Below are positions 3,047 through 21,729 of a stretch of 64,000 nucleotides of DNA, piece after piece. This DNA is from Prosthecobacter sp. (GTDB taxonomy: Bacteria > Verrucomicrobiota > Verrucomicrobiia > Verrucomicrobiales > Verrucomicrobiaceae), in contig JABARQ010000047.1 of NCBI GenBank assembly GCA_019186985.1, positions 186,001-250,000 of the forward strand, given 5' to 3'. Numbering within the stretch: position 1 is the first letter of the stretch; the number at the start of each line of letters is the position of its first letter. The notes beneath the pieces were generated by a model. The model did not search any database. It was not told the DNA's origin and saw only the letters and a program-made list of their open reading frames with translations. The position numbers and the translations under genes are program-made.

Positions 3047-3182
3047 GGACTGGCCGGAGCACGTCTCCGGAAAAGATGCCAGATCAGGCGTGAAGCCGCA
3101 GCCCGATGGCTGCCCGCACCGCCGCCTGACAACGCGCGCCACCATGCGTGCTGATGCAGCCCCATCACCAGCCCCCAGATCC

Positions 3183-4457: not shown

Positions 4458-4460
4458 GCC

Positions 4461-7400
4461 ATGATCTCATCCATCATTGAGTTCTCGCTGCGGAACCGCT
4501 TCCTCGTCATCATGGGGGCGCTCCTGCTGCTCGGCGCGGGTGTCTTTTCCGCCCTGCACCTGCCGGTGGACGCCGTGCCTGACATCACCAACACCCAGGT
4601 GCAGGTCAACACCGCCGTCGCCGGCCTCGCCCCTGAGGAGACCGAAAAGCTGGTGACCTATCCGCTGGAGCTCGCCCTGGCGGGCATCCAGGGCGTGGAG
4701 GAGTTCCGCTCCCTCACCAAGTCCGGGCTTTCCCAGGTCACCCTCGTCTTCCGTGACGGCACCGACATCTTCCGCGCCCGCCAGCTTGTCAGCGAACGCC
4801 TCGTGCAGGTGGACCTGCCGCCGGGCATGAATCCGCAGATGTCGCCCATCAGCACCGGCCTTGGCGAGATCCTCTACTACACGCTCGACTTCAAGAAGGA
4901 CGCCGCCGCACGCAGGGAGCCGCGTGAACGGCAGCTCATGGACCTGCGTGACGTCCATGACTATGTCGTGAAGCCCTTCCTGCGCACGGTTCCCGGAGTT
5001 GCCGAGGTCAACAGCAGCGGCGGCTATGAACGCCAGCTCGTCATCCTCCCGAAGCCGGAGGCCCTGACCCGCGCCGGCATGACCTTCGGCGAGCTCGCTG
5101 AAATCATCGGCATGAACGTGGACAACGCCGGAGGCGGCGTCATCGAACGCGGCGCCGACCGCGTGCTCATCCGCGGCGTCAGCAAGGTGTCCAGCGCCGA
5201 GGACATCGCCAACCTTCCCGTGAAGTTCGCCGCAGCCGTGGAGCCGCTCCGCGTCAAGGACCTGGCCGAGGTCGGCATCGGCAGCAACGTCCGCACCGGC
5301 TGCGCCGTCGAAAACGGCGAGGAGGCCGTGCTCGGCACCGTCATGATGCTCGTCGGCGAAAACAGCCGCATCATCAGCAAGCGCGTGGAGGCCAAGCTCG
5401 CCGAACTCCAGAACAAGCTCCCCCCCGGGATGGAAATCCGCACCCAGTATGCCCGCAGTGAAGTGGTGGACCGCACCGTCGACACCGTGAAGCACAACCT
5501 CTTTGAAGGGGCTGTGCTCGTCGTCGTGGTCCTTCTCCTCCTGCTGGGCAACTGGCGTGCGGCCCTCATCGTGGCCATGGCCATCCCGCTCTCCTTCCTC
5601 TTCGCCCTCATCGGCATGACCTTCGGCGGCGTCTCGGGAAACCTCATGTCGCTCGGCGCCGTGGACTTCGGCCTCATCATCGACGGCGCCGTCGTCATGG
5701 TGGAAAACATCGTGCGTGTACTGGGCGATCGTCAGCATGAACTCGGACGCCGTTTGACAGCCAAGGAACGTCTCGCCGCCGTCCGAGAGGCGGGTGAGCA
5801 GGTCGGCAGCCCGATGTTCTTCGGCGTGCTCATCATCACCCTCGTCTACCTGCCCATCCTCGCCCTCACCGGCATTGAAGGGAAGATGTTCCATCCCATG
5901 GCCATCACCGTGATGCTGGCCCTCGGCGGCGCTCTCGTCCTCGCCCTGACCCTCATGCCCGCCCTCTGCTCGCTCCTGCTGCGCGGCGACATCAGCGAAA
6001 AGGACAACTTCCTGATGCGCGCCGCCAAGGCCGCCTATGCACCTCTGCTCGGCCTGGCCTGGCGCATGCGCTGGGGCGTGGTCGTCATCGTCTCGGGCCT
6101 GCTTGCCGGCACCGTCCTGCTCTTCCTCAGCCTCAAGCAGGAGTTCGTCCCCACCCTCAACGAGGGATCCTGGACCGCCATGGTCTACCAGCCCGCCAAC
6201 ACCAGCCTGAAAACCTCGCTCGAACGCTGCATCAAAACCCAGCGGTATCTCCTCGGCAAGGTCCCCGAGGTCACCCGCACCTTCGCACGCATCGGCACCA
6301 GCGAGGTCGCCACCGACCCGATGTCCCCCGGTGAATATGACCTCTACATCTTCTACCGGCCGCAGTCGGAGTGGCGGAAGGAAAACGGCCGCCCGGTCAG
6401 CCGCGACCGCCTCGCGGAGCTCGTGCGCGGGGAGCTCGCCAGGGAGGTGCCTGAGCAGGACTATGACTTCGCCCAGCCCATCCAGATGCGTTTCAACGAA
6501 ATGCTCGAAGGCTCCCGCGCCGACCTGGCCGTGCGCATCTTTGGTGAGGATTATGACACCATGGAAAAGCTCGCAGGCCGTGTGAAAACCATCCTCGAAG
6601 GCCTCGATGGCACCAACAATGCGGAGTTTGAAAGCCAGGGCCGCGTGCCCGTGCTGGAGATCCGCGTGGACCGCTCCGCCATGCTCAGGTACAACGTCGA
6701 GGCCGCCGAGGTGAACGCCGCGATCACCACCGCCATGGCGGGCCACACGGCCGGAACACTGATCGAGCACAACCGCCGCCGCTCCATCGTCGTGCGACTT
6801 CCCGAAAGCCTGCGCAACAATCCGGAGACCATGAAGGCCCTCCCTGTCCGAACCCAGGACGGAGGCTTGATCACCCTTGGCAGGCTCGCCGAGTTTGTCG
6901 AAGTCCCCCAGGTGGACGCCATCGGCCGTGAATCCGGCCACCGCCGCATCGGCTTGAACGTCGACCTTGCCGGCGGCACGGACAGCGAGGCCTATGTGAA
7001 CGCCGCCCGTGAGAAGATCCGCTCCGGCATCGAAATGCCGGAAGGATATCGAGTGGAGTTCGGCGGCCAGTTTGAGCATCTCCAGGAGGCTCGCCAGCGG
7101 CTCGCCATCGTCGTCCCGCTCGCCCTGCTGCTCATCTTTGTGCTCATCCACAGCGCCTTCAAAAGCGTCGGGCAGACCCTCATCATCTACACGGGCATCC
7201 CCCTCGCCATCACCGGCGGTGTCGCCGCGCTCTGGCTGCGCGGACTGCCGTTCAGCATCAGCGCCGCCATCGGTTTCATCGCCCTCTGCGGCGTCGCGGT
7301 GCTGAACGGAGTCGTGCTCATCAGCTGCTTCAACCAGCTCCGCAACGAAGGCCGCAACGCCGCCTCCGCCGTGACCGAAGGCAGCCTGCAGCGCCTGCGC

Positions 7401-7637
7401 CCCGTGCTCATGACGGCCCTCGTCGCCAGCCTCGGCTTCATCCCCATGGCCGTCAGTGAAGGGGCCGGGGCCGAGGTTCAGCGCCCTCTCGCCACGGTCG
7501 TCATCGGCGGCATCGTCAGCAGCACCTTCCTCACCCTCTTCCTCCTGCCTCTGCTCTACCGCTGGCTCATGGCGGCACCCTCCCGTGAGGCCGCCCACGA
7601 ACAGCAGCCTTCCGTCATCACAACCCAGGCCGCCTGA
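4461..7637 (+). CDS. Heavy-metal efflux RND transporter, CzcA/CusA family
   Basis: This is a full-length (1058-residue) RND pump of the inner membrane: one N-terminal transmembrane helix, a large periplasmic loop, a helix bundle around residues 345-535, a second periplasmic loop and a second bundle from about 880 to 1045. The heavy-metal signature DFGLIIDGAVVMVEN is present, with Asp402, Asp408 and Glu415 placed as the proton-relay residues described for CzcA. This DFG form is typical of pumps for divalent cations (Zn, Co, Cd, Ni) rather than the Cu/Ag CusA form, so I favour divalent export. The TolC partner lies just upstream. No membrane-fusion adaptor (CzcB-like) gene occurs in the run, which is unusual. 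Confidence 0.93.
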   Translation: MISSIIEFSLRNRFLVIMGALLLLGAGVFSALHLPVDAVPDITNTQVQVNTAVAGLAPEETEKLVTYPLELALAGIQGVEEFRSLTKSGLSQVTLVFRDGTDIFRARQLVSERLVQVDLPPGMNPQMSPISTGLGEILYYTLDFKKDAAARREPRERQLMDLRDVHDYVVKPFLRTVPGVAEVNSSGGYERQLVILPKPEALTRAGMTFGELAEIIGMNVDNAGGGVIERGADRVLIRGVSKVSSAEDIANLPVKFAAAVEPLRVKDLAEVGIGSNVRTGCAVENGEEAVLGTVMMLVGENSRIISKRVEAKLAELQNKLPPGMEIRTQYARSEVVDRTVDTVKHNLFEGAVLVVVVLLLLLGNWRAALIVAMAIPLSFLFALIGMTFGGVSGNLMSLGAVDFGLIIDGAVVMVENIVRVLGDRQHELGRRLTAKERLAAVREAGEQVGSPMFFGVLIITLVYLPILALTGIEGKMFHPMAITVMLALGGALVLALTLMPALCSLLLRGDISEKDNFLMRAAKAAYAPLLGLAWRMRWGVVVIVSGLLAGTVLLFLSLKQEFVPTLNEGSWTAMVYQPANTSLKTSLERCIKTQRYLLGKVPEVTRTFARIGTSEVATDPMSPGEYDLYIFYRPQSEWRKENGRPVSRDRLAELVRGELAREVPEQDYDFAQPIQMRFNEMLEGSRADLAVRIFGEDYDTMEKLAGRVKTILEGLDGTNNAEFESQGRVPVLEIRVDRSAMLRYNVEAAEVNAAITTAMAGHTAGTLIEHNRRRSIVVRLPESLRNNPETMKALPVRTQDGGLITLGRLAEFVEVPQVDAIGRESGHRRIGLNVDLAGGTDSEAYVNAAREKIRSGIEMPEGYRVEFGGQFEHLQEARQRLAIVVPLALLLIFVLIHSAFKSVGQTLIIYTGIPLAITGGVAALWLRGLPFSISAAIGFIALCGVAVLNGVVLISCFNQLRNEGRNAASAVTEGSLQRLRPVLMTALVASLGFIPMAVSEGAGAEVQRPLATVVIGGIVSSTFLTLFLLPLLYRWLMAAPSREAAHEQQPSVITTQAA

Positions 7638-8181: not shown

Positions 8182-9375
8182 ATGAGCATCCGCACCCCCA
8201 TCTGTTTTTCATCCGTCGGCCTGACATCGGGAAGGCTACCCCTGCGCCCGTCCTTCGCCGTCGCCCCACTCCTCCTGCCGGCGGTCTCCATGCAGGCCGC
8301 CGAGGCCTTCCGCTTCGACTCCGGCTACCAGACCTACGATGAATCCGGCGGACGCATGTTCATCGAGTCCTACTACTACCGCGGTGAGATGTTCCTCTCC
8401 GAGGACACCAGCTTCCGCTTCCAGATCCTGCGTGACGCCATCAGCGGTTCAACCCCCATCGGCACCCTGCCCGGCGACGCCACCCAGCCCTTCCTCGTCG
8501 AGCTCGAAGACGTTCGCAGCGGGGTGCTCGCCGCACTCTCCCAGCAGATAGGCGACCATCGCCTTGAGCTGGAGGTCTCCGACAGCCGTGAGAGCGACTA
8601 CATCTCCCAGGGCATCTCCCTCAATGACCGCTGGGAGCTGAACCAGAAAAACACCACGCTCAGCATGGGGCTGAACTTCGTCAACGACACCATCACCGTC
8701 CGGGGCACGGATGATCAGAACAAGAAAAGCTACGACGCCTTCCTCGGTGTCTCCCAGCTGCTCGACAAGAACACCGTCCTCTCCGCCAACCTCACCCTGG
8801 GCTATTCCGAAGGCTACCTGAACGACCAGTACAAGGTCATCCAGCGCAACGAGCTTTTCTTCGGCATTCCCGTCACCAACATCTACCGCGAAAACCGCCC
8901 CTCCAGCCGGCTGCGCGCCGTCCTCCAGCTCCAGGGCACGCATTTTTTCCCCAGCGCCAACGCGGCGCTCGACGCCATCCTGCGCCTCACCCAGGACGAC
9001 TACGGCATCTCCTCCCAGAGCCTCCAGCTCGAATGGCGCCAGGGCCTGTTCGACCGCCTGGAACTCACGCCCTTCGTCCGCTACTACCAGCAGACCGCCG
9101 CCGATTTCTACCACAGGACCCTCAACGGCCTCAACGTCGGCACGCCGCAGGACTACCCTGACGGCAGCGGCGTCAACTACTCCGCCGACTACCGCCTCTC
9201 CTCCATGGCGGCCCTCAGCCTCGGGTTGAAGACGCGCCTGCGCCTCACGGAAAACATCTCCCTCTCCGCCACCTACGAACGCTACGAGATGACCGGCGTT
9301 GGCGGCGACCAGGCCCCGGCCCAGGCCTACCCGACCGCCAGCATGTGGACCTTCGGCGTCAGCTTCCTCTTTTAA
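8182..9375 (+). CDS. DUF3570-type outer-membrane beta-barrel protein
   Basis: The 397-residue product has an N-terminal signal region ending near SMQAAEAF, followed by many alternating amphipathic strands (for example TVLSANLTLGYSEGYLNDQY and LRLTENISLSATYERYEM) and a terminal Phe (SFLF), the usual signature of a BAM-inserted barrel. Length, the FRFDSGYQTYDESGGRMFIE start and the company of ApbE, a thioredoxin and DUF4266 match the DUF3570 family as I know it. The role is not established; in this set it could be the outer-membrane port or receptor of a periplasmic redox or maturation system. The next gene starts 8 bp downstream. Confidence 0.8.
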   Translation: MSIRTPICFSSVGLTSGRLPLRPSFAVAPLLLPAVSMQAAEAFRFDSGYQTYDESGGRMFIESYYYRGEMFLSEDTSFRFQILRDAISGSTPIGTLPGDATQPFLVELEDVRSGVLAALSQQIGDHRLELEVSDSRESDYISQGISLNDRWELNQKNTTLSMGLNFVNDTITVRGTDDQNKKSYDAFLGVSQLLDKNTVLSANLTLGYSEGYLNDQYKVIQRNELFFGIPVTNIYRENRPSSRLRAVLQLQGTHFFPSANAALDAILRLTQDDYGISSQSLQLEWRQGLFDRLELTPFVRYYQQTAADFYHRTLNGLNVGTPQDYPDGSGVNYSADYRLSSMAALSLGLKTRLRLTENISLSATYERYEMTGVGGDQAPAQAYPTASMWTFGVSFLF

Positions 9376-9383
9376 CCAAATCC

Positions 9384-10355
9384 ATGTCCAAACCCGTCCA
9401 CCAGGCGCCCATGGAACCCGACGCACGCGGCGTGCGCCAGGTCTCCTTCCGCGCCCTCGGCACCCACTGCGCCATCCAGTTCCGCTGTGAGGACGGGCGC
9501 AGGGCGCTTGAGTTTGTCGCGGACGCACTCGGCTGGCTCGGCGCCTTTGAGGCGAAGTTCTCCCGCTTCAAGCCCGACTCCCTCCTCTCCCGCGTCAACC
9601 AGGCCGCCGGCAGGGAATGGGTGCCCGTCGACCCCGACATGGAGAAGATGCTCGACCTCGCCGACGCCATGCACCGCCTGACCGACGGCGTGCTGGATGC
9701 CGCCATGCTGCCCCTCATCAAGGTCTGGGACTGGAAGGTCGTGCACGAACGCCTGCCTGATCAGGCCGAGATCACGCGGGCCATGTCGCTTTCGAGCTGG
9801 AAGGATGTTCAGCGCAAGCCCGGCCAGGTCTTCCTGTCACGCGAAGGCATGGGCCTCGACTTCGGCGGCTTCGGCAAGGAATACGCCGTCGACCAGGTCA
9901 TCGCCATCGCCCGGAAGCACGGCATCAGCGACGCGCTCGTCGACCTTGGCCGTGACATCTTCGCCATCGGCGGCAACGGCGTCCACCCCTTCTGGCATGT
10001 CGGCATCCAGGACGGCGTTCAAACCGAGCGCTGCACCGGCGGGCTGGCCGTAACCAACTATGCCGTCTGCGCCTCGGGCGACTACGCCCGCCGCTTTGAG
10101 CACAACGGCGTCCGCTACGGCCACATCCTCGACCGCAGGACCGGCTGGCCCGTGCGCCACGGCCTGCGCGCCGTCACCGTCATCGCCCCCGGCTGCCTGC
10201 TTGCCGGCATCTACTCCACCGCCGTCTTCGTGCTCGGACTGCGCGACGGGCTGCGCCTCGTCGAAAACGCCAGGGGCGTCGAGGCCTGCGCCCAGGATGA
10301 CAACGGCGTCCATGTCACCCGCGAGTTCCGCCGCTTCCAGGTCCAGCCCGCCTGA
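9384..10355 (+). CDS. apbE: FAD:protein FMN transferase (ApbE family)
   Basis: The 323-residue product belongs to the ApbE family, which splits FAD and links FMN by a phosphoester bond to Thr/Ser of target proteins in a Mg-dependent reaction. Visible family marks in order: LDFGGFGKEYAVDQ (cf. the DFGGIAKGYAVD loop), LVDLGRDIFAIGG (cf. VNLGGNI), CASGDYARRF, GHILDRRTGWPV (cf. HIIDPRTGxP) and STAVFVLG. I choose ATG 9384, which clears the preceding stop; a start at 9345 would overlap that gene. No signal peptide or lipobox is visible, so this copy may act in the cytoplasm, unlike many exported ApbE proteins. Neighbours are DUF3570, TlpA and DUF4266. Possible targets with a DxxAGAT motif are encoded immediately downstream. 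Confidence 0.9.
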   Translation: MSKPVHQAPMEPDARGVRQVSFRALGTHCAIQFRCEDGRRALEFVADALGWLGAFEAKFSRFKPDSLLSRVNQAAGREWVPVDPDMEKMLDLADAMHRLTDGVLDAAMLPLIKVWDWKVVHERLPDQAEITRAMSLSSWKDVQRKPGQVFLSREGMGLDFGGFGKEYAVDQVIAIARKHGISDALVDLGRDIFAIGGNGVHPFWHVGIQDGVQTERCTGGLAVTNYAVCASGDYARRFEHNGVRYGHILDRRTGWPVRHGLRAVTVIAPGCLLAGIYSTAVFVLGLRDGLRLVENARGVEACAQDDNGVHVTREFRRFQVQPA

Positions 10356-10385: not shown

Positions 10386-10871
10386 ATGAAACACACCCTG
10401 CTCCTCGCCCTCGCCTGCCTCGGCCTGGGCGCCGCCCACGCCGCTGAACCCAAAACCGGCTCCGCCCTCCCCGCGCTCGGCGGCCTCCTGCCCGGCGCCC
10501 CCCTGCCAAAAACCGCCGGCAAGGTCGTCCTCGTGGACTTCTGGGCCTCCTGGTGCGCACCCTGCAAGGCCTCGTTCGTCACCCTTTCCAGGCTTCACCA
10601 AAAATACGCCTCCAAAGGCCTCGTCATCATCGGCATCGGCGTTGACGACGAAGCCGCCGACCACCAGGCCTTTGCCGCGAAGAACAAGGCGCCCTTCACC
10701 CTCGTGCATGACTCACAGCACAAGGCCGCCGGATTCTTCAATCCGCCCACCATGCCCAGCAGCTACCTCGTCGACCGCAAGGGCGTGATCCGCCACATCC
10801 ACAAGGGCTTCAAGGGCGCGAAGACCGAGGCCGAATACGTGGCCGAGATCGAGGCGCTCCTCGCCGAATGA
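10386..10871 (+). CDS. TlpA/ResA-type periplasmic thioredoxin
   Basis: The 161-residue product has a signal peptide (MKHTLLLALACLGLGAAHA) and then one thioredoxin fold with the active site FWASWCAPCKASF (Cys57 and Cys60) and the cis-Pro region PPTMPSSYLVDRKG. Such proteins reduce or isomerise disulfides in the periplasm, for example for cytochrome c or cupredoxin maturation. The downstream gene overlaps it by 4 bp (ATGA) and encodes a small Cys-containing lipoprotein with a GGGCGCN tail, which is an obvious candidate substrate for this thioredoxin (inference). No CcdA/DsbD-type electron donor gene is nearby. Confidence 0.9.
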   Translation: MKHTLLLALACLGLGAAHAAEPKTGSALPALGGLLPGAPLPKTAGKVVLVDFWASWCAPCKASFVTLSRLHQKYASKGLVIIGIGVDDEAADHQAFAAKNKAPFTLVHDSQHKAAGFFNPPTMPSSYLVDRKGVIRHIHKGFKGAKTEAEYVAEIEALLAE

Positions 10872-11122
10872 ACTTTGCAACCCCGCGCGCCATCATGAAC
10901 CTCCGCCTCCTCGCCTCCGCAGCCTGCGCTTCGCTTCTGCTTTGCAGCTGCTCCGACAGCCTCGTCAGGGTGAAGCCCTATGAACGCGGCAACCTGGCCA
11001 ATCCGCTCATGGACAACGGCCGTGACCCCCTTCTGCTCGCCATGACGCAGCACGCCTACTTCTCCCGCGAGGCCGCCTTTGGCGGCGGCGGGGTCGGCGG
11101 CGGCGGCTGCGGCTGCAACTGA
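10868..11122 (+). CDS. DUF4266-family small lipoprotein with Gly/Cys-rich tail
   Basis: This encodes 84 residues from the ATG overlapping the thioredoxin stop (ATGA); an in-frame ATG at 10895 (MNLRLLASAACASLLL) is an alternative that starts directly at the signal peptide. A lipobox-like LLCSC follows, then the family core VKPYERGNLANPLMDNGRD and QHAYFSREAAFGGGG, ending in GGGGCGCN. This matches the DUF4266 family, which I recall travelling with DUF3570, ApbE and thioredoxin genes. Function is unknown; the invariant-looking C-terminal CxC could be a metal ligand, a redox site or a modification site. Coupled translation with the thioredoxin suggests they work together. Confidence 0.85.
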   Translation: MNFATPRAIMNLRLLASAACASLLLCSCSDSLVRVKPYERGNLANPLMDNGRDPLLLAMTQHAYFSREAAFGGGGVGGGGCGCN

Positions 11123-11176: not shown

Positions 11177-14128
11177 ATGAATGTCCTTAACTTACTGAAA
11201 GTTCTGAAAAAATTTGGCAAAAGGGCCAGCTCTCTGCTCATGCTCTTCCAGCGCACTCCGGCCGCCCAGGTGCTGCTGCCCGCCGAGTTCAACCTCGCCT
11301 CCTCCTCGGTGCTCCTTGACGCCTCCAGGCTGCTCATCACCAGCGTCGTCGGCCTCGGCGCCTACGACAGCGTCGCCGGCGCCACCACGCTGACACAGGT
11401 CAGCGGCTCCCTGAACGGCACGACCGGACAGCCGTTCTCCGCCACCTTCCAGGTTTCTGGCAGCCCCAGCACGCCCAAGTCCTGGCGCATCATCAACGGG
11501 CCCATGCAGGCGGGCCTCAGCCTGCCCAACACCACGGGCAGCACCAACACGATCTCAGGAACGCCGACGGAATCCGGCAGCAAGACCGTCACGATCCAGG
11601 CCTGGGAGAAATCAGGATTCTCCGGAGGTGTCGTGCAAAAAAGCATCACCATCACCATCAGCGCCCCCCCGGCTGCGGCCATCGTGACCCAGCCCTCCTC
11701 CACCACCATCAACAGCGGACAATCGACGACGCTGACCGTGACCGCCTCGGGTGCCACGCCCATCACCTATCAATGGTACCGCGGCAGCAGCGGCGACACC
11801 TCCAACCCGGTCGGCACAAACTCCGCTTCCTTCACCACGCCGGTGCTGACAAGCACCACCAGCTACTGGGTGAACGTCTCCAACGCCGAAAATTTAACGG
11901 GACAAAACTCCAGCACGGCCACCGTCACCGTCCGCCAGCCCGCCGCCATCACCACGCATCCGGCATCAACCTCAGTCGCAGGCGGCCAGTCCGCCACGCT
12001 CTCCGTGGTGGCGACAGGAGATGCGCCGCTGACTTATCAATGGTATCAAGGCTCCTCCGGCGACACCTCAACCCCTGTGGGTTCCAACCAGGCCTCCTTT
12101 ACCACGCCCCCGCTGGCTGCCGAAACCAGCTACTGGGTGAAGGTGACCAACATCGCCAACAGCTCGGGCGCCTTGTCCAACACGGCCACGGTTTCAATCC
12201 TTGCAGCAGCCGCTCCCACGGTCTTCACCCTGTCACCCCTGCCCACCGCAAGAACAGGCCTGAGCTACTCCACAACCCTGGTCGCCACAGGAGGCACGAC
12301 TCCCTACAACTGGTCGCTCAAGACAGGCAGTCTTCCCAACGGCCTCACCCTCAGCCCTGACGGCGTCCTCTCCGGCACTCCCTCCGGCTTCGGCTCCTTC
12401 ACCTTCACCCTCGAGGTCGCCGACCAGGAACTCGACACCGACTCCCGCGAGTTCTCTCTCGTCGTCAGCAACCTCGCCATCTCCACCTCCTCCCTCCCCA
12501 CCGCCGTCAAGGGCACCCCCTTCTCCTTCTCTCTCGCTGCCTCCGGCTCCAATCCCGTCCAGTCCTGGGCCGTCCATGCCGGTGTCCTACCCGCCGGCAT
12601 CTCCCTCAACTCCTCCACAGGTGTCCTCTCCGGCACTCCCACCACTCCCGGCTCCTCTTCCCTCACCTTCCGCGTCACCGACTCCTCCGGCTTCTCCGTC
12701 ACCCGCGCTCTCCTGCTCACGGTCTCCGCCAAGTTCATCAAGCCGGTCCTCGACCCCGTCACCTTCCCCACCATCACCGTCGGCGAAACCTTCCTCCACA
12801 GGCTCTCCGCACAGAACTATCCCAAGACCTTCTCCGTCACCGGCCTGCCCAAGGGCCTCAAGCTCAACGCGGCCTCCGGTGAAATCACCGGCGTCCCCGA
12901 CGTCTCTGGCCTCTTCATCCTCCAGATCCGCGCCTCCAACTCCGCCGGGGCCAGCCTCATCCTCAAGGCCCCCCTCACCATCAAGTCCCTGCCCAAAAAC
13001 CTCGTCGGCTCCTTCGGCGGCACCCTCCAGCGCCTCCCCGCCGTCAACCAGAACCTCGGCGGCATGTTCTCCCTCTCCGTCACCTCCAACGGCTTCTACT
13101 CCCTCAAGCTCACCAGCGCCCTCGCCTCCGTCACCAAGTCCAACGCCGCCTCCTCCTTCTCCTCCACCGGCAGGCTCGCTCCCTCCCCTCCCCACATCTC
13201 CATCCCCCTTGCCGGACAGCCCCTCTCCCTCTCCATCAACCCCGCCTCCGGCGCCGTCTCCGGGTTCCTCGGCGCCGCCTCCCTCTCCGGATGGCGCGCC
13301 GCCTGGAACGCCGCCACCAACCCCGCTGAAAACCTCGTCGGCTACTACAGCTTCGCCATCGACCTCAGCGATCCCGCCGATGACGGCATGGCCGGCATCC
13401 CCCAGGGCTCCGGCTTCGCCACCTTCTCCGTCTCCAACTCGGGAGCCATCAGCATCGTCGGCAAGTCCGCCGACGGCGAACCCCTCACCAGCTCCCCCCT
13501 GCTCGGCTCCAGCGGCGAGTTCTGGCTCTACTCGCCCCTCTACAAAAGCCTCGGCTCCCTCCAGGGCTCCCTCACCCTCACCGAGGATCCCGCCGGCCTC
13601 TTCTCCGCCAACTCCATCGCAGGTCTGCTCTCCTGGTCCAAGCCCAACACCACCTCACGCGCCTACCCCGCCTTCGGCCCCATCAACCTCAAGGCCGAGG
13701 GCGCCTACCTCGCTCCCGCCAGCAAGGGCAACCCCGCTCTCGGCCTGCCGGACACCGGCACCGTCGGCCTGCGCTTCACCGACGGCGGCCTCGCCGACTC
13801 CGACACCGACCCAGATGTCGACTTCACCTTCACCGACGAGGACAAGGTCCTGCTCTCCAAGGACCCCCTCGTCAACAAGGGCCAGGCCGCCCTGAGCCTC
13901 AACCCGGCCAGCGGGGCCATCAGCGGCACCTTCACCCTGGTGGAGACCACGCCTGCGCCCTTCACCCGCGCCAAGGTGCCCTTCCAGGCCCAGGTCGTGC
14001 GCCTCGCCGACGGCCAGGTCAGGGCCGCCGGCTTCTTCCTCCTGCCCCAGGTCCCCGCTGGCGCCCAGAAGCCCGCGGACACCCCCATCCTTTCCGGCGG
14101 CGTCCAGCTCATCCAGCCAGTGCCGTGA
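11177..14128 (+). CDS. Giant putative-Ig-repeat surface protein, copy 1
   Basis: The 983-residue product has an N-terminal module (residues 1-75) with a basic start, RASSLLMLFQRTPAAQVLLP and GLGAYDSVAGATTL. Then come a putative-Ig (He_PIG-like) domain, two Ig-like repeats of about 85 residues (both with TYQWY.GSSGDTS.PVG and TSYWV), three more He_PIG-like domains (LPxGLxL...G.LSGTP signature) and a C-terminal beta region (from about 620) with VGSFGGTLQRLP and LVGYYSFAIDL. It is probably exported and surface bound. Residues 389-983 are identical to the next gene's product. The motif DSVAGATTL (Asp64 to Leu72) resembles the ApbE flavinylation site of NqrB/RnfD. It lies 54 bp after the DUF4266 gene. 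Confidence 0.85.
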   Translation: MNVLNLLKVLKKFGKRASSLLMLFQRTPAAQVLLPAEFNLASSSVLLDASRLLITSVVGLGAYDSVAGATTLTQVSGSLNGTTGQPFSATFQVSGSPSTPKSWRIINGPMQAGLSLPNTTGSTNTISGTPTESGSKTVTIQAWEKSGFSGGVVQKSITITISAPPAAAIVTQPSSTTINSGQSTTLTVTASGATPITYQWYRGSSGDTSNPVGTNSASFTTPVLTSTTSYWVNVSNAENLTGQNSSTATVTVRQPAAITTHPASTSVAGGQSATLSVVATGDAPLTYQWYQGSSGDTSTPVGSNQASFTTPPLAAETSYWVKVTNIANSSGALSNTATVSILAAAAPTVFTLSPLPTARTGLSYSTTLVATGGTTPYNWSLKTGSLPNGLTLSPDGVLSGTPSGFGSFTFTLEVADQELDTDSREFSLVVSNLAISTSSLPTAVKGTPFSFSLAASGSNPVQSWAVHAGVLPAGISLNSSTGVLSGTPTTPGSSSLTFRVTDSSGFSVTRALLLTVSAKFIKPVLDPVTFPTITVGETFLHRLSAQNYPKTFSVTGLPKGLKLNAASGEITGVPDVSGLFILQIRASNSAGASLILKAPLTIKSLPKNLVGSFGGTLQRLPAVNQNLGGMFSLSVTSNGFYSLKLTSALASVTKSNAASSFSSTGRLAPSPPHISIPLAGQPLSLSINPASGAVSGFLGAASLSGWRAAWNAATNPAENLVGYYSFAIDLSDPADDGMAGIPQGSGFATFSVSNSGAISIVGKSADGEPLTSSPLLGSSGEFWLYSPLYKSLGSLQGSLTLTEDPAGLFSANSIAGLLSWSKPNTTSRAYPAFGPINLKAEGAYLAPASKGNPALGLPDTGTVGLRFTDGGLADSDTDPDVDFTFTDEDKVLLSKDPLVNKGQAALSLNPASGAISGTFTLVETTPAPFTRAKVPFQAQVVRLADGQVRAAGFFLLPQVPAGAQKPADTPILSGGVQLIQPVP
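11366..11392 (+). other. Candidate ApbE flavinylation motif (copy 1)
   Basis: These codons encode DSVAGATTL (residues 64-72 of the Ig-repeat protein). The ApbE target consensus in NqrB, NqrC and Rnf subunits is D..(S/T)GA(T/S), often followed by x-L. The match is complete except that Ala replaces the first Ser/Thr; Thr70 would be the FMN acceptor. The identical motif at the same position occurs in the paralogue. Functional flavinylation is inference. Confidence 0.35.
12341..14128 (+). repeat. 1.8-kb direct repeat, unit 1
   Basis: These 1788 bp recur at 15570-17357 with a constant offset of 3229 bp and no indels. By eye I found a single difference, G at 14071 against A at 17300, a synonymous Lys codon change. 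The repeat covers the 3' 595 codons and stop of both Ig-repeat genes. A shorter shared stretch with the same offset lies just upstream (from 12241), separated by about 65 diverged bases. Third-position identity on this scale indicates recent gene conversion or duplication. Confidence 0.95.
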
Positions 14129-14195
14129 AGCTGGATGACACTGTCCTTCAGCCGGTGAAAAACACGGCCTGAAGGGCACTTGATGAAGAATTGAA

Positions 14196-14231
14196 GCCGT
14201 GTCCCGGTGCATTCCGAGACACGGCCTTTTT
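14196..14231 (+). terminator. Rho-independent terminator
   Basis: GCCGTGTC (14196-14203) pairs with GACACGGC (14218-14225), extended by CGG/CCG across one mismatch, with a TGCATT loop and followed by CTTTTT. It lies 68 bp after the first Ig-repeat gene and should end the transcript before the second copy. Confidence 0.75.
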
Positions 14232-14387
14232 GCGTGCATGTCAGTCGAATCGTTTGTTCGGCAGCCATGCATGCGGCCGAGGGGAGGCCAGGAGCGAAGT
14301 TTCACAACTTTTGGATGCCGACAGGCTTTCAATGGCGCCCCGGTCGTCATTAAATGCCGCCGAACCCATCCCCCCGACAGGCCCTTC

Positions 14388-17357
14388 ATGAAAACTGCCG
14401 CCCTCTTCCAGAAACTGAAAAGCCTCCTCAAGCGCGCCAGCTCGCTGCTCATGCTCTTCCAGCGCACGCCTGCCGCCCAGGTGCTGCTGCCCGCCGAGTT
14501 CAACCTGGCCTCCTCATCCGCCATGATGGACGCCTCCAGGCTGCTCATCACCACCGTTGCAGGCCTTGGCGCCTACGACAGCGTGGCCGGAGCCACCACG
14601 CTTGCACAGCTTTCTCCCACGCCCAACTCAACCATCGTGCCAGTCAGGGCAGGCGTTGAGTTCACAGGCGCCTTCCAGGTCACCGGCAGCCCGGCCCCGC
14701 CTCAATACTGGGAGGTCATCGGAACCCTTCCCAACGGACTGAGCCTGGACAGTTCACCCGGATCCGTCGCCCTGCTCACCGGCACCACCCTGGAGATGGG
14801 GGACAAAAACGTCATCATCAAAGCCTACCAGTATGCAGGTGCGGGAGCTGGCGGCGGCAGCATCGAAAAAAGCTTCACGATTCGTGTCACGGCTCCACCG
14901 GAGGCCTTTATCGCCTCCCATCCAGCCTCCACGGAAATCAATCTGGGACAGACCGCCACCCTCATGGTCGCCGCCACGGGCACGGCCCCGATCAACTATC
15001 AATGGTACCAGGGCAGCAGCGGTGACACATCGACGCCCGTCGGTGAAAACGATCCCAGCTTCACCACGCCCATGCTGACAGGCACCACCAGCTACTGGGT
15101 GAAGGTCTCCAATTCCGTCACGCCCTCAGGCGTCAGTTCCAACACGGCCACGGTCACCGTGCGAACCCCCGCCGCCATCACCCAGCAGCCTGAATCCATC
15201 TCCATTTTCTCCGGCCTGAACACCACGCTCACGGTCATGGCCACCGGTTCATCACCTTTAACCTACCAATGGTATCAGGGCGAGTCAGGCGACACCTCAA
15301 CTCCTGTGGGTTCCAATCAGGACTCCTTCACGACCCCCCGGCTTTCAGAAACCACCAGCTACTGGGTGCGGGTGTCCAACATTGTCCTCCCTGAAGGTGT
15401 GGACTCCAACACGGCCGTGGTCACGGTCGAGCCCACCGAGATCCCCTCGATCTTGACGCCGTCGCCCCTGCCCACCGCAAGAACAGGCCTGAGCTACTCC
15501 ACGACCTTCGAGGCGTTTGGCGGCACAACTCCCTATAGCTGGTCAGTCTCCTCGGGTTCCCTGCCACAAGGCCTCACCCTCAGCCCTGACGGCGTCCTCT
15601 CCGGCACTCCCTCCGGCTTCGGCTCCTTCACCTTCACCCTCGAGGTCGCCGACCAGGAACTCGACACCGACTCCCGCGAGTTCTCTCTCGTCGTCAGCAA
15701 CCTCGCCATCTCCACCTCCTCCCTCCCCACCGCCGTCAAGGGCACCCCCTTCTCCTTCTCTCTCGCTGCCTCCGGCTCCAATCCCGTCCAGTCCTGGGCC
15801 GTCCATGCCGGTGTCCTACCCGCCGGCATCTCCCTCAACTCCTCCACAGGTGTCCTCTCCGGCACTCCCACCACTCCCGGCTCCTCTTCCCTCACCTTCC
15901 GCGTCACCGACTCCTCCGGCTTCTCCGTCACCCGCGCTCTCCTGCTCACGGTCTCCGCCAAGTTCATCAAGCCGGTCCTCGACCCCGTCACCTTCCCCAC
16001 CATCACCGTCGGCGAAACCTTCCTCCACAGGCTCTCCGCACAGAACTATCCCAAGACCTTCTCCGTCACCGGCCTGCCCAAGGGCCTCAAGCTCAACGCG
16101 GCCTCCGGTGAAATCACCGGCGTCCCCGACGTCTCTGGCCTCTTCATCCTCCAGATCCGCGCCTCCAACTCCGCCGGGGCCAGCCTCATCCTCAAGGCCC
16201 CCCTCACCATCAAGTCCCTGCCCAAAAACCTCGTCGGCTCCTTCGGCGGCACCCTCCAGCGCCTCCCCGCCGTCAACCAGAACCTCGGCGGCATGTTCTC
16301 CCTCTCCGTCACCTCCAACGGCTTCTACTCCCTCAAGCTCACCAGCGCCCTCGCCTCCGTCACCAAGTCCAACGCCGCCTCCTCCTTCTCCTCCACCGGC
16401 AGGCTCGCTCCCTCCCCTCCCCACATCTCCATCCCCCTTGCCGGACAGCCCCTCTCCCTCTCCATCAACCCCGCCTCCGGCGCCGTCTCCGGGTTCCTCG
16501 GCGCCGCCTCCCTCTCCGGATGGCGCGCCGCCTGGAACGCCGCCACCAACCCCGCTGAAAACCTCGTCGGCTACTACAGCTTCGCCATCGACCTCAGCGA
16601 TCCCGCCGATGACGGCATGGCCGGCATCCCCCAGGGCTCCGGCTTCGCCACCTTCTCCGTCTCCAACTCGGGAGCCATCAGCATCGTCGGCAAGTCCGCC
16701 GACGGCGAACCCCTCACCAGCTCCCCCCTGCTCGGCTCCAGCGGCGAGTTCTGGCTCTACTCGCCCCTCTACAAAAGCCTCGGCTCCCTCCAGGGCTCCC
16801 TCACCCTCACCGAGGATCCCGCCGGCCTCTTCTCCGCCAACTCCATCGCAGGTCTGCTCTCCTGGTCCAAGCCCAACACCACCTCACGCGCCTACCCCGC
16901 CTTCGGCCCCATCAACCTCAAGGCCGAGGGCGCCTACCTCGCTCCCGCCAGCAAGGGCAACCCCGCTCTCGGCCTGCCGGACACCGGCACCGTCGGCCTG
17001 CGCTTCACCGACGGCGGCCTCGCCGACTCCGACACCGACCCAGATGTCGACTTCACCTTCACCGACGAGGACAAGGTCCTGCTCTCCAAGGACCCCCTCG
17101 TCAACAAGGGCCAGGCCGCCCTGAGCCTCAACCCGGCCAGCGGGGCCATCAGCGGCACCTTCACCCTGGTGGAGACCACGCCTGCGCCCTTCACCCGCGC
17201 CAAGGTGCCCTTCCAGGCCCAGGTCGTGCGCCTCGCCGACGGCCAGGTCAGGGCCGCCGGCTTCTTCCTCCTGCCCCAGGTCCCCGCTGGCGCCCAGAAA
17301 CCCGCGGACACCCCCATCCTTTCCGGCGGCGTCCAGCTCATCCAGCCAGTGCCGTGA
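14388..17357 (+). CDS. Giant putative-Ig-repeat surface protein, copy 2
   Basis: The 989-residue product starts at ATG 14388, whose first 75 codons align without gaps to the first copy (RASSLLMLFQRTPAAQVLLP and GLGAYDSVAGATTL at the same residue numbers). The frame is open to an upstream ATG at 14199, but that extension overlaps the terminator hairpin and resembles no signal. Domain order is the same as copy 1: one He_PIG-like domain, two Ig-like repeats with YQWYQG and TSYWV, then He_PIG-like domains and the C-terminal beta region. Residues 395-989 are identical to copy 1, whereas residues 76-394 are clearly diverged. So the two differ mainly in the Ig-like repeats that would face outward or bind partners (inference). 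No similarity to a characterised protein is known to me. Confidence 0.85.
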   Translation: MKTAALFQKLKSLLKRASSLLMLFQRTPAAQVLLPAEFNLASSSAMMDASRLLITTVAGLGAYDSVAGATTLAQLSPTPNSTIVPVRAGVEFTGAFQVTGSPAPPQYWEVIGTLPNGLSLDSSPGSVALLTGTTLEMGDKNVIIKAYQYAGAGAGGGSIEKSFTIRVTAPPEAFIASHPASTEINLGQTATLMVAATGTAPINYQWYQGSSGDTSTPVGENDPSFTTPMLTGTTSYWVKVSNSVTPSGVSSNTATVTVRTPAAITQQPESISIFSGLNTTLTVMATGSSPLTYQWYQGESGDTSTPVGSNQDSFTTPRLSETTSYWVRVSNIVLPEGVDSNTAVVTVEPTEIPSILTPSPLPTARTGLSYSTTFEAFGGTTPYSWSVSSGSLPQGLTLSPDGVLSGTPSGFGSFTFTLEVADQELDTDSREFSLVVSNLAISTSSLPTAVKGTPFSFSLAASGSNPVQSWAVHAGVLPAGISLNSSTGVLSGTPTTPGSSSLTFRVTDSSGFSVTRALLLTVSAKFIKPVLDPVTFPTITVGETFLHRLSAQNYPKTFSVTGLPKGLKLNAASGEITGVPDVSGLFILQIRASNSAGASLILKAPLTIKSLPKNLVGSFGGTLQRLPAVNQNLGGMFSLSVTSNGFYSLKLTSALASVTKSNAASSFSSTGRLAPSPPHISIPLAGQPLSLSINPASGAVSGFLGAASLSGWRAAWNAATNPAENLVGYYSFAIDLSDPADDGMAGIPQGSGFATFSVSNSGAISIVGKSADGEPLTSSPLLGSSGEFWLYSPLYKSLGSLQGSLTLTEDPAGLFSANSIAGLLSWSKPNTTSRAYPAFGPINLKAEGAYLAPASKGNPALGLPDTGTVGLRFTDGGLADSDTDPDVDFTFTDEDKVLLSKDPLVNKGQAALSLNPASGAISGTFTLVETTPAPFTRAKVPFQAQVVRLADGQVRAAGFFLLPQVPAGAQKPADTPILSGGVQLIQPVP
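14577..14603 (+). other. Candidate ApbE flavinylation motif (copy 2)
   Basis: The same nine residues (DSVAGATTL, residues 64-72) as in copy 1, outside the gene-converted 3' repeat. Conservation in the N-terminal module, while the following Ig domains diverge, suggests selection on this module. The flavinylation role is inference. Confidence 0.35.
15570..17357 (+). repeat. 1.8-kb direct repeat, unit 2
   Basis: Second unit of the near-identical direct repeat (offset 3229 bp from 12341-14128), covering the 3' 595 codons and stop of the second Ig-repeat gene. Homologous recombination between the units would delete about 3.2 kb and leave one chimeric gene. Confidence 0.95.
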
Positions 17358-17868: not shown

Positions 17869-17987
17869 AGTCCGGCCTCACGCCGAAGCCGTCCCGTGCC
17901 CGCCTTGGCATCGCCGGGAGTCATCATTCCGCCGTCGGAACAATCATGGACGGCATCCTTTTGTCAAAGCCTGACCCTGCAGCCCCC

Positions 17988-18593
17988 ATGCTCCGTTTCA
18001 CATCCTCCTTTTCCTCCCTCGCATCCGCCCTCCTGCTCGTCGCACCGCTTGTCCTGCCTCTGCAATCCAGCTCCCTGGCCGGGGAGGTGCAGGCCTGGAA
18101 AGGCCGGGCGGACATCACCTTCAGCGGCACCTCCACCCTTCATGACTGGTCCGGCAGGGTTGCCGCCCAACCCTTCATCACCCGCGTCACCACCGATTCA
18201 GGCGGCAGGCCGGCGCGTGTCCAGTCCTCCGTGAAGATCGAGGCCGCAGGCATGGACACCGACGAGCCCAGGCGTGATGAAAACATGCACAAGGCCATGA
18301 AGGCCGCCGAGCATCCGCTCATCACCGCCGAAATCGACGTGCCCGCCGGCAGGATCGCCTCTGACCTGAAGACGCCGACACAGCTGCCGATGACGCTCAC
18401 GCTGCTCGGCAGGCCCCTGCAGGTCACAGCCGTCGTCAGCAGCTTCAAGCAGCAGGACGGCGGCATCACCTTCGACCTCGACTTTCCCCTCTCGATGAAG
18501 GCCGGCGGCATCAGCGTGCCCTCCGTCCTCTATTTCATCCGGGTCGGCGATGTCGTGAAGATCCACGCATCCGTCACCCTCACCCAGAACTGA
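17988..18593 (+). CDS. YceI-family periplasmic lipid-binding-type protein
   Basis: The 201-residue product starts at ATG 17988, which opens a signal peptide (MLRFTSSFSSLASALLLVAP); ATG 17946 would add a non-signal extension. The mature part has the YceI layout: ITFSGTSTLHDWSGRV at the start (cf. the F..ST..H...G strand pair), KIEAAGMDTDEPRRDENMHKAM in two parts, HPLITAEID, and a long beta barrel ending in VKIHASVTL. YceI proteins are lipocalin-like barrels that bind isoprenoid or amphiphilic molecules. The polyketide synthase gene starts 17 bp downstream, so this protein may carry or sequester its lipid product (inference). Confidence 0.82.
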   Translation: MLRFTSSFSSLASALLLVAPLVLPLQSSSLAGEVQAWKGRADITFSGTSTLHDWSGRVAAQPFITRVTTDSGGRPARVQSSVKIEAAGMDTDEPRRDENMHKAMKAAEHPLITAEIDVPAGRIASDLKTPTQLPMTLTLLGRPLQVTAVVSSFKQQDGGITFDLDFPLSMKAGGISVPSVLYFIRVGDVVKIHASVTLTQN

Positions 18594-18610: not shown

Positions 18611-19762
18611 ATGTCCGCCTACATTCACCATCTCGCCACCCTCACTCCGCCCTACACCTACGCACAGACCTACACCCGCGATCGCATCAAGGACTGGGCG
18701 AATGATCCCAAGACCCGGCGGATCATCCACGCCATCTACAACCGCAGCGGCATCGAGACACGCAACAGCGTCACCGGCGACTTCATCGTCGGCTCTGACG
18801 CCACCCTCTACCGCACCGACGCCCAGGGCGCCCTCATCCCTCCGTCCACGGCGGAGCGCAACCGCGTCTACGGCCACTGGTCCAGACAGCTCGCCGTCGA
18901 GCTTGCGCGCCGCGCCATCAACGACGCGCCCGGCTTCGACAAGGAGGACATCACCCATGTCATCTTCACCTCCTGCACCGGCTTCACCAACCCCGGGCCC
19001 GACTACCACATCATCAAGGAGCTCGGCCTGCGTACCGATGTCGAACGCTACACGCTTGGCTTCATGGGCTGCTACGCCGCCTTCCCTTCGCTGCGCATGG
19101 CGGCGCAGTTCTGCCAGGCCAGGCCCGACGCCGTGGTGCTCGTCATCTGCCTGGAGCTGTGCACCCTGCACATGCAGGTCAATGACCATCCGGACAGCAT
19201 CCTTGCCAACTCCCTGTTCGCAGATGGCGCCGCCGCCGCCATCGTCAGCGCCCGTGAACCCCGGCAGGGTCGCCCGGCCTACAGGCTCGACGGCTTCGAA
19301 AGCGCCCTCGTCCCCGCCAGCGAGTCCGAAATGGCCTGGGAGATCGGCGACGAAGGCTTCAATATCGTCCTCTCCAGCTATGTCCCCGACATCATCGGCG
19401 GCAACATCCGCCAGCTCATGAGCGACATCCTCAAACGCCATGACATGACCCCGGAGGACATCGCGGAATGGGCCGTGCATCCCGGCGGCCGCGCCATCCT
19501 CGACAAGGTTCAGGAAAGCCTGCGGCTCGCCCCCGACACCCTGGAGGCCAGCCGCAGCGTCCTGCGCGACTACGGCAACATGAGCAGCGCGACCATCCTC
19601 TTCGTCCTGAAGGAGATGCTCGACAGCGCCGAAAGCGAAAGCGCCTCGCTCTGCGCCATGGCCTTCGGCCCTGGACTCACCGTGGAAACCGCCGTCATGC
19701 AGAGGATCGGCGGCCCCGTCATGAGTGAATCACAAAAACGCACGGCACTCCAGGCGTCATGA
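18611..19762 (+). CDS. Type III polyketide synthase (chalcone/stilbene synthase superfamily)
   Basis: The 383-residue product is of normal length for a type III PKS. The catalytic triad is visible: Cys154 in TLGFMGCYAAFP, His290 in EWAVHPGGRAI, and Asn323 in DYGNMSSATI. These enzymes extend a fatty acyl or other starter with malonyl-CoA and cyclise the product to resorcinols, pyrones or chalcones. The linked methyltransferase-monooxygenase gene starts inside its stop codon (ATGA, 19759-19762). This pairing matches the phenolic-lipid operon srsABC of Streptomyces griseus, so an alkylresorcinol or alkylpyrone product is the best guess. Starter and ring type cannot be read from sequence alone. 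Confidence 0.92.
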   Translation: MSAYIHHLATLTPPYTYAQTYTRDRIKDWANDPKTRRIIHAIYNRSGIETRNSVTGDFIVGSDATLYRTDAQGALIPPSTAERNRVYGHWSRQLAVELARRAINDAPGFDKEDITHVIFTSCTGFTNPGPDYHIIKELGLRTDVERYTLGFMGCYAAFPSLRMAAQFCQARPDAVVLVICLELCTLHMQVNDHPDSILANSLFADGAAAAIVSAREPRQGRPAYRLDGFESALVPASESEMAWEIGDEGFNIVLSSYVPDIIGGNIRQLMSDILKRHDMTPEDIAEWAVHPGGRAILDKVQESLRLAPDTLEASRSVLRDYGNMSSATILFVLKEMLDSAESESASLCAMAFGPGLTVETAVMQRIGGPVMSESQKRTALQAS

Positions 19763-21729
19763 ACACCCGCGCCGAACTGACCTACAGCCCGGCCCAGCGC
19801 TTCACGGCGCTGGGCTACGGACTCGCCAGCCACACGCTCTTCCTGGCCTCCGTCGCAGCCATGTTCTGGAGCCTCTACAACGGCCTTCACCTCAGCCTGC
19901 TGCACCTCCATGGCGGAGCCGCCGCGCTCGTGAACCTCCTGCTGCTGCTCCAGTTTGCCCTGGGCCACACGCTGCTGCTCTCCAGCCGCGGCCGCAGGTT
20001 CATGACACGCCTCGCCCCCCTTGGCCTTGGCCCAGCCCTGTCCACCACCATCTTCGCAGGCCTCGCCTCCCTGCAGCTGCTGGCGACCTTCCTGTTCTGG
20101 TCCTCCAGCGACACCGTCTGGTGGGCTCCCGAGGGCGGCGTCAAGCTCACGCTCAGCCTGCTCTATGGCATCTCCTGGCTTCTGCTCGCCAAATCCATGG
20201 GCGACGCAGGCCTCGACACCCAGGTCGGCATCCTCGGCTGGCGCTCCATCTGGCGGGGTGAAAAGCCCGTCTACCGGCCCTTCGCGCGCACCGGCATGTT
20301 CCGCTACAGCCGCCAGCCGATCTATTCCTCCTTCACCCTCATCCTCTGGACAGCCCCCGTCTGGACCCCCGACCACCTCGCCGTCGCCCTGCTCTGGTCG
20401 GCCTACTGCGTGCTCGCACCTCTGCTCAAGGAAAAGCGCTACCGCCAGTGGTATGGAGCCGCCTTCGAACGTTACCAGCAGCGCGTGCCGTACTGGTTCC
20501 CTGCCAGGATGCGTCCCTCCATCACCCACAGTTCACAGCCGGTCACCGCCGACCACGATGTCGCCATCGTCGGCGCCGGGCCCGTCGGCCTCATGCTCGC
20601 CGGCCTTCTCGGCCAGAAGGGCCTGAACGTGCTGGTCGTGGACAAGCGCACCGAACCCCTCCGGCATTCCCAGGCCATCGGCATCACGCCGCCCTCCCTG
20701 GAAATCCTCGCACGCCTCGGCCTTGCCGAAGAGTTTGTCAGGCGCGGCGTCCAGATCCGTGACTGCCATGTCCATGGCCAGACCGGCTGGCTCGGCTGCG
20801 CCAGCTTCCGTGACATCCCCGGCCCCCACCGCTGCATCCTCTCGCTGCCCCAGCAGCAGACACTCGACCTTCTTGAAGCCAGGGTGGCCGCCATGCCCAA
20901 TGTGCGGCTGCTGCGTGGTGTCGAAATCTCCAACATCGAACAGGACGCCTCCTCCGTCACCCTGCATGGCGGCTCGCTCACGGCCACCGCCCGCTGGCTC
21001 GTCGGATGCGACGGCAGCCGCAGCCAGGTGCGCGAAACCCTCCGGATGCGCACACGCGGAGGCAGCTACGGCTGCCACTTCCTCATGGGCGACTTCATCG
21101 ACCGCTCCGGCTTGAAGGACGAGGCGCATCTTTGGTTCACACGCGACGGCGCCGTGGAGGCCTTCCCGCTTCCGGACGGACGCCGCCGCTGGATCGTCCA
21201 GACCTCCGAATCCGTCACCGACGGCAGGCACGGCCTCATCAGCAGGCTCGTCCGTGAGCGCGCCGGACTCGACATTGCCGTCGAAGACCAGCTTAACCAG
21301 AGCCCGTTCTCGCCACGCTGGATGCAGTCCGAGCAATATCATGACGGCCGTGTCATCCTGTGCGGCGACGCCGCCCATCTCATGAGCCCCATCGGCGGCC
21401 AGGGCATGAACACCGGCTGGGCGGACGCCGAGTTCCTCGCCGAGTCGCTCATCGCCATCGAGCAGCACGGCCGCGAACCCCGGCCCCTGCTGGAGGCCTA
21501 CGACCGCTGCCGGCATCGTGCCTCCGACGTGGCCATCGCCCGTGCCGCACGCGGCATGTGGCTGGGCACCCGCCAGGGCCTCGTCTCCTCCTGGCTGCGC
21601 GACCTGTTCATGCGCGAGGCCCTGTTCAAAGGGCCGCTTTCACGATGCATCGGCCCCTATTTCGCCATGCTCACCATTCCCTACAACACGGTGAAGGCCG
21701 TGCCGGAGAAGGTGTTCGCCCTGCGCTGA
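19759..21729 (+). CDS. Fusion: isoprenylcysteine-methyltransferase-like domain + FAD-dependent monooxygenase
   Basis: This is one uninterrupted 656-residue frame. Residues about 1-250 are a multi-helix membrane domain with the ICMT/PEMT-like ending [12 protein letters not shown] and [20 protein letters not shown], typical of SAM-dependent methyltransferases acting on lipid-like substrates. Residues about 266-656 are a class A flavoprotein monooxygenase: [15 protein letters not shown] (FAD Rossmann), a DG-type motif in [11 protein letters not shown], and [18 protein letters not shown]. In srsABC, SrsB (methyltransferase) and SrsC (monooxygenase) act on SrsA-made alkylresorcinols to give methyl ethers and quinones; here both activities sit in one membrane-tethered chain. 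Start overlaps the PKS stop. It ends 4 bp before the convergent clpX. Confidence 0.88.

Follow-up and report, generated by a model that had tools for sequence, protein, structure and literature searches.

Ig-repeat proteins of Verrucomicrobiia with an ApbE-site-like N-terminal module as probable partners of a DUF3570–ApbE–TlpA–DUF4266 redox operon

ApbE-family transferases attach flavin mononucleotide (FMN) to the last residue of the motif D-x-x-[S/T]-G-A-[S/T], and NqrB and RnfD are also named among their substrates. The closest described systems to the locus reported here are the DsbD-type flavinylation clusters with DUF3570, DUF4266 and thioredoxin genes (Meheust et al., 2021; excerpt of PMC8238504), in which DUF3570 carries [S/T]GA[S/T]-type sites and DUF4266 ends in CxC. 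The same four kinds of gene, with similar features, are present in a stretch of 64,000 nucleotides from Prosthecobacter sp. (contig JABARQ010000047.1, positions 186,001–250,000; hereafter the window, to the whole of which all coordinates refer unless a locus is named). The excerpted text mentions neither an immunoglobulin (Ig)-repeat protein nor the N-terminal module described below, whereas the operon in the window is followed by a large Ig-repeat protein, present in two copies. These Ig proteins very probably belong functionally with the redox operon, because they are coinherited with it, because a motif in their module is nearly constant and because a heme-bearing protein replaces the module in two relatives. 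An earlier note on this DNA had proposed both this partnership and FMN on the module; the link to the operon was found through several families of the class, and FMN on the module stays unproven. The operon and the two Ig genes are arranged as follows.

8182..9375, + strand: DUF3570 protein, a predicted outer-membrane barrel (Pfam PF12094, E 2e-65; AlphaFold2 model; Foldseek)
8434–8454, + strand: ApbE-type motif DAISGST in DUF3570 (D85–T91; motif reading)
9384..10355, + strand: ApbE-family flavin transferase (PF02424, E 5e-71; alignment to FmnB, 7esa; column counts; N-termini)
10386..10871, + strand: TlpA-like thioredoxin with a signal peptide-like N-terminus and WCAPC (PF00578/PF08534)
10895..11122, + strand: DUF4266 small lipoprotein-like protein, C-terminal CGCN (CxC; PF14086, E 2e-20)
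11177..14128, + strand: first Ig-repeat protein, 983 residues (Pfam He_PIG, Ig_7, Ig_3)
11177..11386, + strand: N-terminal module, first copy (residues 1–70), with D64-S-V-A-G-A-T70 at 11366–11386
14388..17357, + strand: second Ig-repeat protein, 989 residues from ATG 14388
14388..14597, + strand: N-terminal module, second copy, with DSVAGAT at 14577–14597
12341..14125 and 15570–17354, + strand: 595 C-terminal residues common to both Ig copies, among them the C-terminal domain that the heme-bearing relatives also have

Both Ig proteins contain DSVAGATTL at residues 64–72 (counted in the second copy from ATG 14388), as the earlier note had read and as translations and a pattern search confirm. 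A degenerate DNA pattern allowing up to two mismatches gave two matches in the window, both exact, against 0.17 expected, and none of 100 shuffles yielded two. The C-terminal 595 residues of the two proteins are identical and their coding DNA is ∼99–100% identical over ∼1.8 kb, a sign of recent duplication or gene conversion; the sequences diverge N-terminal of that block, so that only the N-terminal parts count as separate observations. For the second protein an alternative GTG start at 14199 would add 63 residues, none of which is seen in relatives. The ApbE gene lies upstream on the same strand, as previously noted, with 0.8 kb between its end and the first copy; the N-termini of homologues make ATG 9384 its probable true start. 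The TlpA-like thioredoxin has ResA/DsbE-like NCBIfam matches, all below cut-offs, and the Ig proteins match no named NCBIfam family above cut-off.

In the window's family, a single-sequence search of 68 genomes found strong relatives of the module in 17, every one of them a member of the window's genus; a match in an 18th (E 0.07) was discarded. Ten named loci carry the module in Verrucomicrobiaceae, Akkermansiaceae and related metagenome-assembled genomes, including Brevifollis gellanilyticus. In a phylum-wide sample of 387 genomes, a 24-sequence profile matched at least 24; 23 matches were genuine, all of them in the window's class, and the idea of a phylum-wide module was dropped on this ground. 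Weak matches in G351 (L054, E 0.004; sequence unlike the module), G000 C36 (L003, E 0.11; without the motif), G050 and G016-C59 (E 0.07) were not counted. Most of the 23 genomes belong to a second family, which we take to be Opitutaceae, where a wider profile found the module in 140 of 250 genomes. Two further modules (in G165 and G350), not among the profile matches of the 387-genome sample, were recognized by reading the operons. Plasmid records gave no match to the module or to the window's DUF3570; 502 matched the window's ApbE, all below 60% identity.

At least two of DUF3570, ApbE, TlpA and DUF4266 lie on the same stretch in 47 of 50 module loci with flanks, the stretches of the other three (L078, L080 and L085) carrying none of the four. 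The usual gene order is DUF3570–ApbE–TlpA–DUF4266–module protein; at L158, L032 and L254 the order differs or a gene is absent with linkage still kept, and some module operons (L025, L026 and L073) have no detected TlpA. At L132 (3910–8569), DUF4266 and the module gene lie ∼4.7 kb apart, with a response regulator gene and others in between, and the spacing is similar at L091 and L098.

Coinheritance was counted with DUF4266 as the marker of the operon. Among 48 genomes of the window's genus, 17 have both module and DUF4266, 31 have neither and none is discordant; among 250 of the second family, 136 have both, four the module only, four DUF4266 only and 106 neither (Fisher p of 2e-13 and 6e-60, respectively, values that overstate independence since the genomes are related). 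Contig ends account for several of the eight discordant genomes: the contig stops just after DUF4266 in G593, 1.1 kb after DUF4266 without a module in G467, ∼0.6 kb upstream of the module frame in G464 and at an operon-type ApbE in G520. G595 has DUF3570, ApbE and the module with no DUF4266 match, in G456 and G477 the DUF4266 match is weaker and ApbE is absent, and for G455 no such explanation was found. The presence of ApbE alone is uninformative, since all 68 genomes of the window's family have it; the module tracks the DUF3570/DUF4266 operon rather than ApbE in general. The earlier note had called for a look at co-occurrence with apbE and DUF4266 and for module-bearing genomes without apbE. 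None turned up among the module genomes searched for ApbE, the gene being present in 17 of 17 of the family and in four of four discordant genomes that have the module, and it is the DUF4266 operon that the module follows.

The operon also occurs without the module. Of the 20 genomes of the window's family that lie outside its genus, seven have DUF4266 and none has the module (single-sequence query). Of the 42 genomes with DUF4266 in the 387-genome sample, 26 are within the class and 25 of these have the module (23 by profile, together with G165 and G350), and the 16 outside the class gave no significant module match in the stretches examined. The seven family and 16 other-class genomes pull against the partnership in so far as the operon exists there without the module, which is, as judged from these matches, a class-specific companion of the operon.

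The motif was counted over 128 distinct module sequences drawn from 152 frames. Its last three positions (G in 127, A in 128, and T in 124 or S in four) are among the lowest-entropy columns. Position 4 is Ala in 105, Ser in 16, Val in six and Thr in one, the window copies having Ala where the ApbE consensus has Ser or Thr; position 1 is His in 56, Asp in 52, Asn in 15 and Gln in five. The column counts thus place G-A-T/S under strong selection and the Asp of the consensus, present in both window copies, outside it. The candidate acceptor Thr or Ser is preceded by G-A, as in ApbE substrates, and modules that fit the whole consensus exist (DSVSGAT, DTVTGAT and DTVSGAS). Because the module profiles themselves include the motif, a profile of residues 1–57 only was used as a motif-free control. 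It matched 149 frames in the collected loci, largely loci first collected with motif-containing profiles, and all 149 have [ASTV]GA[ST] within 25 residues. In 120 genomes it matched 57, 54 of them with DUF4266; in 30 loci read from this search, three already in the set and most others at previously collected places, 32 of 32 frames have the motif. Among the module copies read with the motif-free profile, none lacks [ASTV]GA[ST]. A second module copy at L055 (1695–2717, minus strand) reads DAYSAAT, beside a DAVSGAT copy in the same genome. A PDB profile search with the module gave no match at E ≤ 10.

In two genomes of sister genera, G002 (L131 3328–8019) and G003 (L150 5133–10199, minus strand), the gene after DUF4266 encodes a CITCH c-type heme site and the module is absent. 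These open frames of 1564 or 1689 codons start with an ordinary-looking signal peptide, and their C-terminal domain is homologous to that of the window's Ig proteins (E 3.5e-46 for L131, with a profile excluding L131, and 2e-62 for L150). The L131 protein also has Ig-type repeats and a weak Pfam cytochrome c match (E 0.003–0.004). Some observations temper this replacement as support for the partnership: both cases may go back to a single event, and the C-terminal domain in common, found also at L150 3–3728 and L089 6231–8621 with N-termini unseen, is not exclusive to the slot. The other DUF4266 loci of family genomes without the module (L151–L157) gave no module or C-terminal-domain profile match in the stretch, that of L157 reaching only 0.4 kb downstream. 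Absence of TlpA as a special feature of the heme operons was dropped, since the three module operons named above also lack a detected TlpA.

That the motif merely resembles an ApbE site by chance, with no functional link to the redox operon, could be argued from how common ApbE is and how readily short motifs recur. Synteny and coinheritance with this particular operon and the constancy of GA[T/S] contradict it, and we give this idea next to no credence. Very improbable, too, in our view is an uncleaved module that serves as an anchor or plug, docked inside the DUF3570 barrel or next to it, with GAT as an unmodified protein-contact motif. Such a role would suit the association of the module with the DUF3570/DUF4266 operon, as opposed to ApbE genes generally, and the conservation of LLxLLQR[T/S]P and G61 alongside GAT; the restriction of position 70 to Thr or Ser is, however, as expected of an acceptor site.

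Among the operon's proteins, DUF3570 represents the established kind of substrate: a Chlorobium luteolum relative is flavinylated by its ApbE (excerpt of PMC8238504). The AlphaFold2 model of the window's DUF3570 is a barrel with a mean pLDDT of 74.5 and 18 strand elements, ∼16 of them barrel strands by count. Foldseek ranks the porin OmpG and further outer-membrane barrels highest, with modest TM-scores (0.4–0.5 by query length for the top ones). Long loops follow the odd strands, and D85–T91 lies at the end of strand 3, adjoining the loop 90–107, and is in this model probably on the outer side. The earlier note had taken DUF3570 for an export or redox partner; on the published relative, the model and the Foldseek matches it is more likely to be a flavin-carrying outer-membrane barrel and partner of the Ig proteins than an export helper. 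In related loci the usual form of its motif is D-[AST]-[IV]-[ASTV]-G-[AS]-[ST], Ser at position 6 being the residue in the window. Over 120 motifs read, position 4 is Ser in 59, Ala in 33, Thr in 24 and Val in four, which makes Ala at this position common in the lineage; the residue set {A, S, T, V} is the same in the module. Ala in place of the first Ser/Thr, which the earlier note had held against flavinylation, is thus a weaker objection than feared, the more so as some modules read DSVSGAT or DTVTGAT. In raw pairing, module Ser occurs only with DUF3570 Ser (16 of 16), and DUF3570 Val is paired with module Val in three of four cases.

The operon ApbE was aligned to Listeria FmnB (7esa) over 133 frames, some from overlapping loci. 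All 133 keep Ser and His of the triad as well as the Arg of FmnB type. At the position of the triad Asp (FmnB D301, Vibrio cholerae D285), 129 frames have Gly; the four with Asp come from divergent operons in other classes (L145, L146, L147 and L149). Among 12 ApbE genes from elsewhere, Asp is present in 11, and the twelfth is operon-type. The N-terminus could be examined in 101 frames, 94 of which have no hydrophobic stretch before the core, so that the missing signal peptide remarked on for the window's ApbE is real and usual. The conservation of the DUF3570 motif speaks for activity of the operon-type enzyme.

Several findings weigh against a flavin on Thr70. The operon-type ApbE is not the catalytically complete, exported enzyme expected of a DUF3570/DUF4266 system, and with Gly for Asp and mostly no signal peptide its activity is, as far as these sequences tell, unproven. 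The motif Asp is not conserved in the module, in contrast to DUF3570, where it is present in 107 of 107 DUF3570–module pairs (some operons counted twice); replacing it by Ala reportedly had only a minor effect in one ApbE substrate (excerpt of PMC12052999). The covariation of position 4 between module and DUF3570 is suggestive at best, since after collapse by genus it is weak (p of 0.05 and 0.03; second family, 75 pairs reduced to 34 combinations). Among the other near-constant columns, the Q, R and P of LLxLLQR[T/S]P and G61, the conserved stretch LLxLLQR[T/S]P upstream of the motif is unexplained by flavinylation. Finally, A67-G68-A69|T70 fits the −3/−1 rule of signal peptidase, which the prevalent Ala at position 4 suits at least equally well, Lys or Arg stands at module position 51 in 115 of 128 sequences, and a confident Ig fold is predicted only from residue 71, after an unstructured 43–70.

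These last features are those expected if the module is a long dedicated signal peptide, in which an amphipathic extension at the N-terminus precedes K/R51 and a short hydrophobic core, and which signal peptidase I cuts at A69|T70. The Ig protein would then be a non-flavin scaffold or adhesin partner of the DUF3570 system, its likeness to an ApbE site being incidental. Position −3 would be A, S, V or T and −1 Ala in all 128 modules, with polar D, H, N or Q at −6, and exceptionally long signal sequences are known in autotransporters (excerpt of PMC2805444). Signal peptidase alone, however, needs neither Gly at −2 (127 of 128) nor Thr or Ser at +1 (128 of 128). The module is also rare where the redox operon is missing (four of 110 genomes in the second family), and the two heme-bearing relatives make do with an ordinary-looking signal peptide in the same slot. 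A strongly hydrophobic core 11-mer is found in only 65% of 151 modules by our own cut-off. The model of module plus Ig domain (mean pLDDT 73.3), with low-confidence helices at 3–42 and no structure at 43–70, fits a cleaved leader and a flexible, anchored segment alike. The extended export signal that the earlier note had raised as a caution remains a serious alternative and the main rival, to which we give real though limited credence.

Both could occur at once: a cytosolic ApbE would place FMN on Thr70 of the unfolded precursor, and cleavage at A69|T70 would leave FMN-threonine as the first residue. The prevalence of operon ApbEs without a hydrophobic N-terminus and the coincidence of the flavinylation core with the possible cleavage site agree with such a route, and Klebsiella pneumoniae provides a known example of a cytosolic ApbE with a soluble enzyme as its substrate (excerpt of PMC12052999). 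We hold the route to be improbable. Export of a flavinylated chain by Sec is not known to us, and the barrel DUF3570 would meet the same problem.

In the mechanism that we infer, the Ig-repeat proteins would form the surface part of a redox system of the outer membrane, with DUF3570–ApbE–TlpA–DUF4266 as its genes. The thiol proteins (TlpA and the CxC lipoprotein-like DUF4266) would pass electrons to or from the flavinylated DUF3570 barrel. ApbE would attach FMN to Thr70 of the module within [ASV]-G-A-[T/S], giving a further redox centre at the N-terminus of the Ig protein, and the helical and hydrophobic part of the module would target the protein to the envelope; in the two sister-genus genomes the module's place is taken by a c-type heme domain. 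On the sequences at hand, we regard FMN on Thr70 by this mechanism as evenly balanced, and as somewhat probable if the cytosolic variant is counted in. Only tentatively do we put forward the whole picture of a flavin-based outer-membrane electron conduit, in which a new type of ApbE (no signal peptide, Gly for Asp) would put FMN on both the DUF3570 barrel and the Ig export module, the module would be interchangeable with a c-type heme domain and the Ig proteins would form a new class of covalent flavoprotein.

Since the module in related bacteria is found almost only together with this one set of redox genes, the Ig proteins are probably part of so far unstudied cell-surface machinery for moving electrons. 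A large Ig protein that is nearly always inherited with the operon in the window's genus and the second family, and whose module gives way to a heme domain in two relatives, points to electron exchange there. If the module is flavinylated, the recognition motif known for ApbE would become wider, with Asp dispensable and position 4 open to Ala or Val. The group of ApbEs in which Gly replaces the triad Asp offers a direct test of the enzyme's proposed mechanism. In the open-licence literature we found no paper on this Ig protein or module, and DUF3570 or DUF4266 is mentioned in one paper only.

The operon is immediately preceded in the window by genes for an outer-membrane efflux protein and an AcrB-family RND pump (3090–7637). 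Downstream of the second Ig gene are a YceI-like protein (17946–18593) and, at 18611–21729, a type III polyketide synthase (chalcone/stilbene synthase family) and immediately after it a protein that has a domain of the FAD-binding monooxygenase type.

Compared with the DUF3570/DUF4266 flavinylation clusters, for which the excerpt of PMC8238504 gives two motifs per DUF3570, the window's DUF3570 has one recognized motif, and its ApbE differs in having no visible signal peptide and Gly for the triad Asp. The modules share the G-A-T/S core with the ApbE substrates NqrC, RnfG, DUF2271 and DUF3570; they differ in that His, Asn or Gln often stands at position 1 and Ala mostly at position 4, a signal-like segment ends in the site and the proteins lack an FMN-binding domain match (PF04205: no Pfam match at E ≤ 0.001 in either Ig protein of the window). 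Porin–multiheme cytochrome conduits, including putative ones of Verrucomicrobia (excerpt of PMC5615132), likewise join an outer-membrane barrel to a redox protein that is sometimes extracellular; the likeness is one of architecture, and FMN and thiols would serve as cofactors in the present system, with a single heme where the module is replaced. The long signal sequences of autotransporters (excerpt of PMC2805444) resemble the module in having a long N-terminal region, basic and hydrophobic, with a possible A-x-A end. In contrast to autotransporters, the proteins scanned have no autotransporter barrel by Pfam, the possible cleavage site is flanked by a conserved Gly and Thr, and the module is tied to a redox operon.

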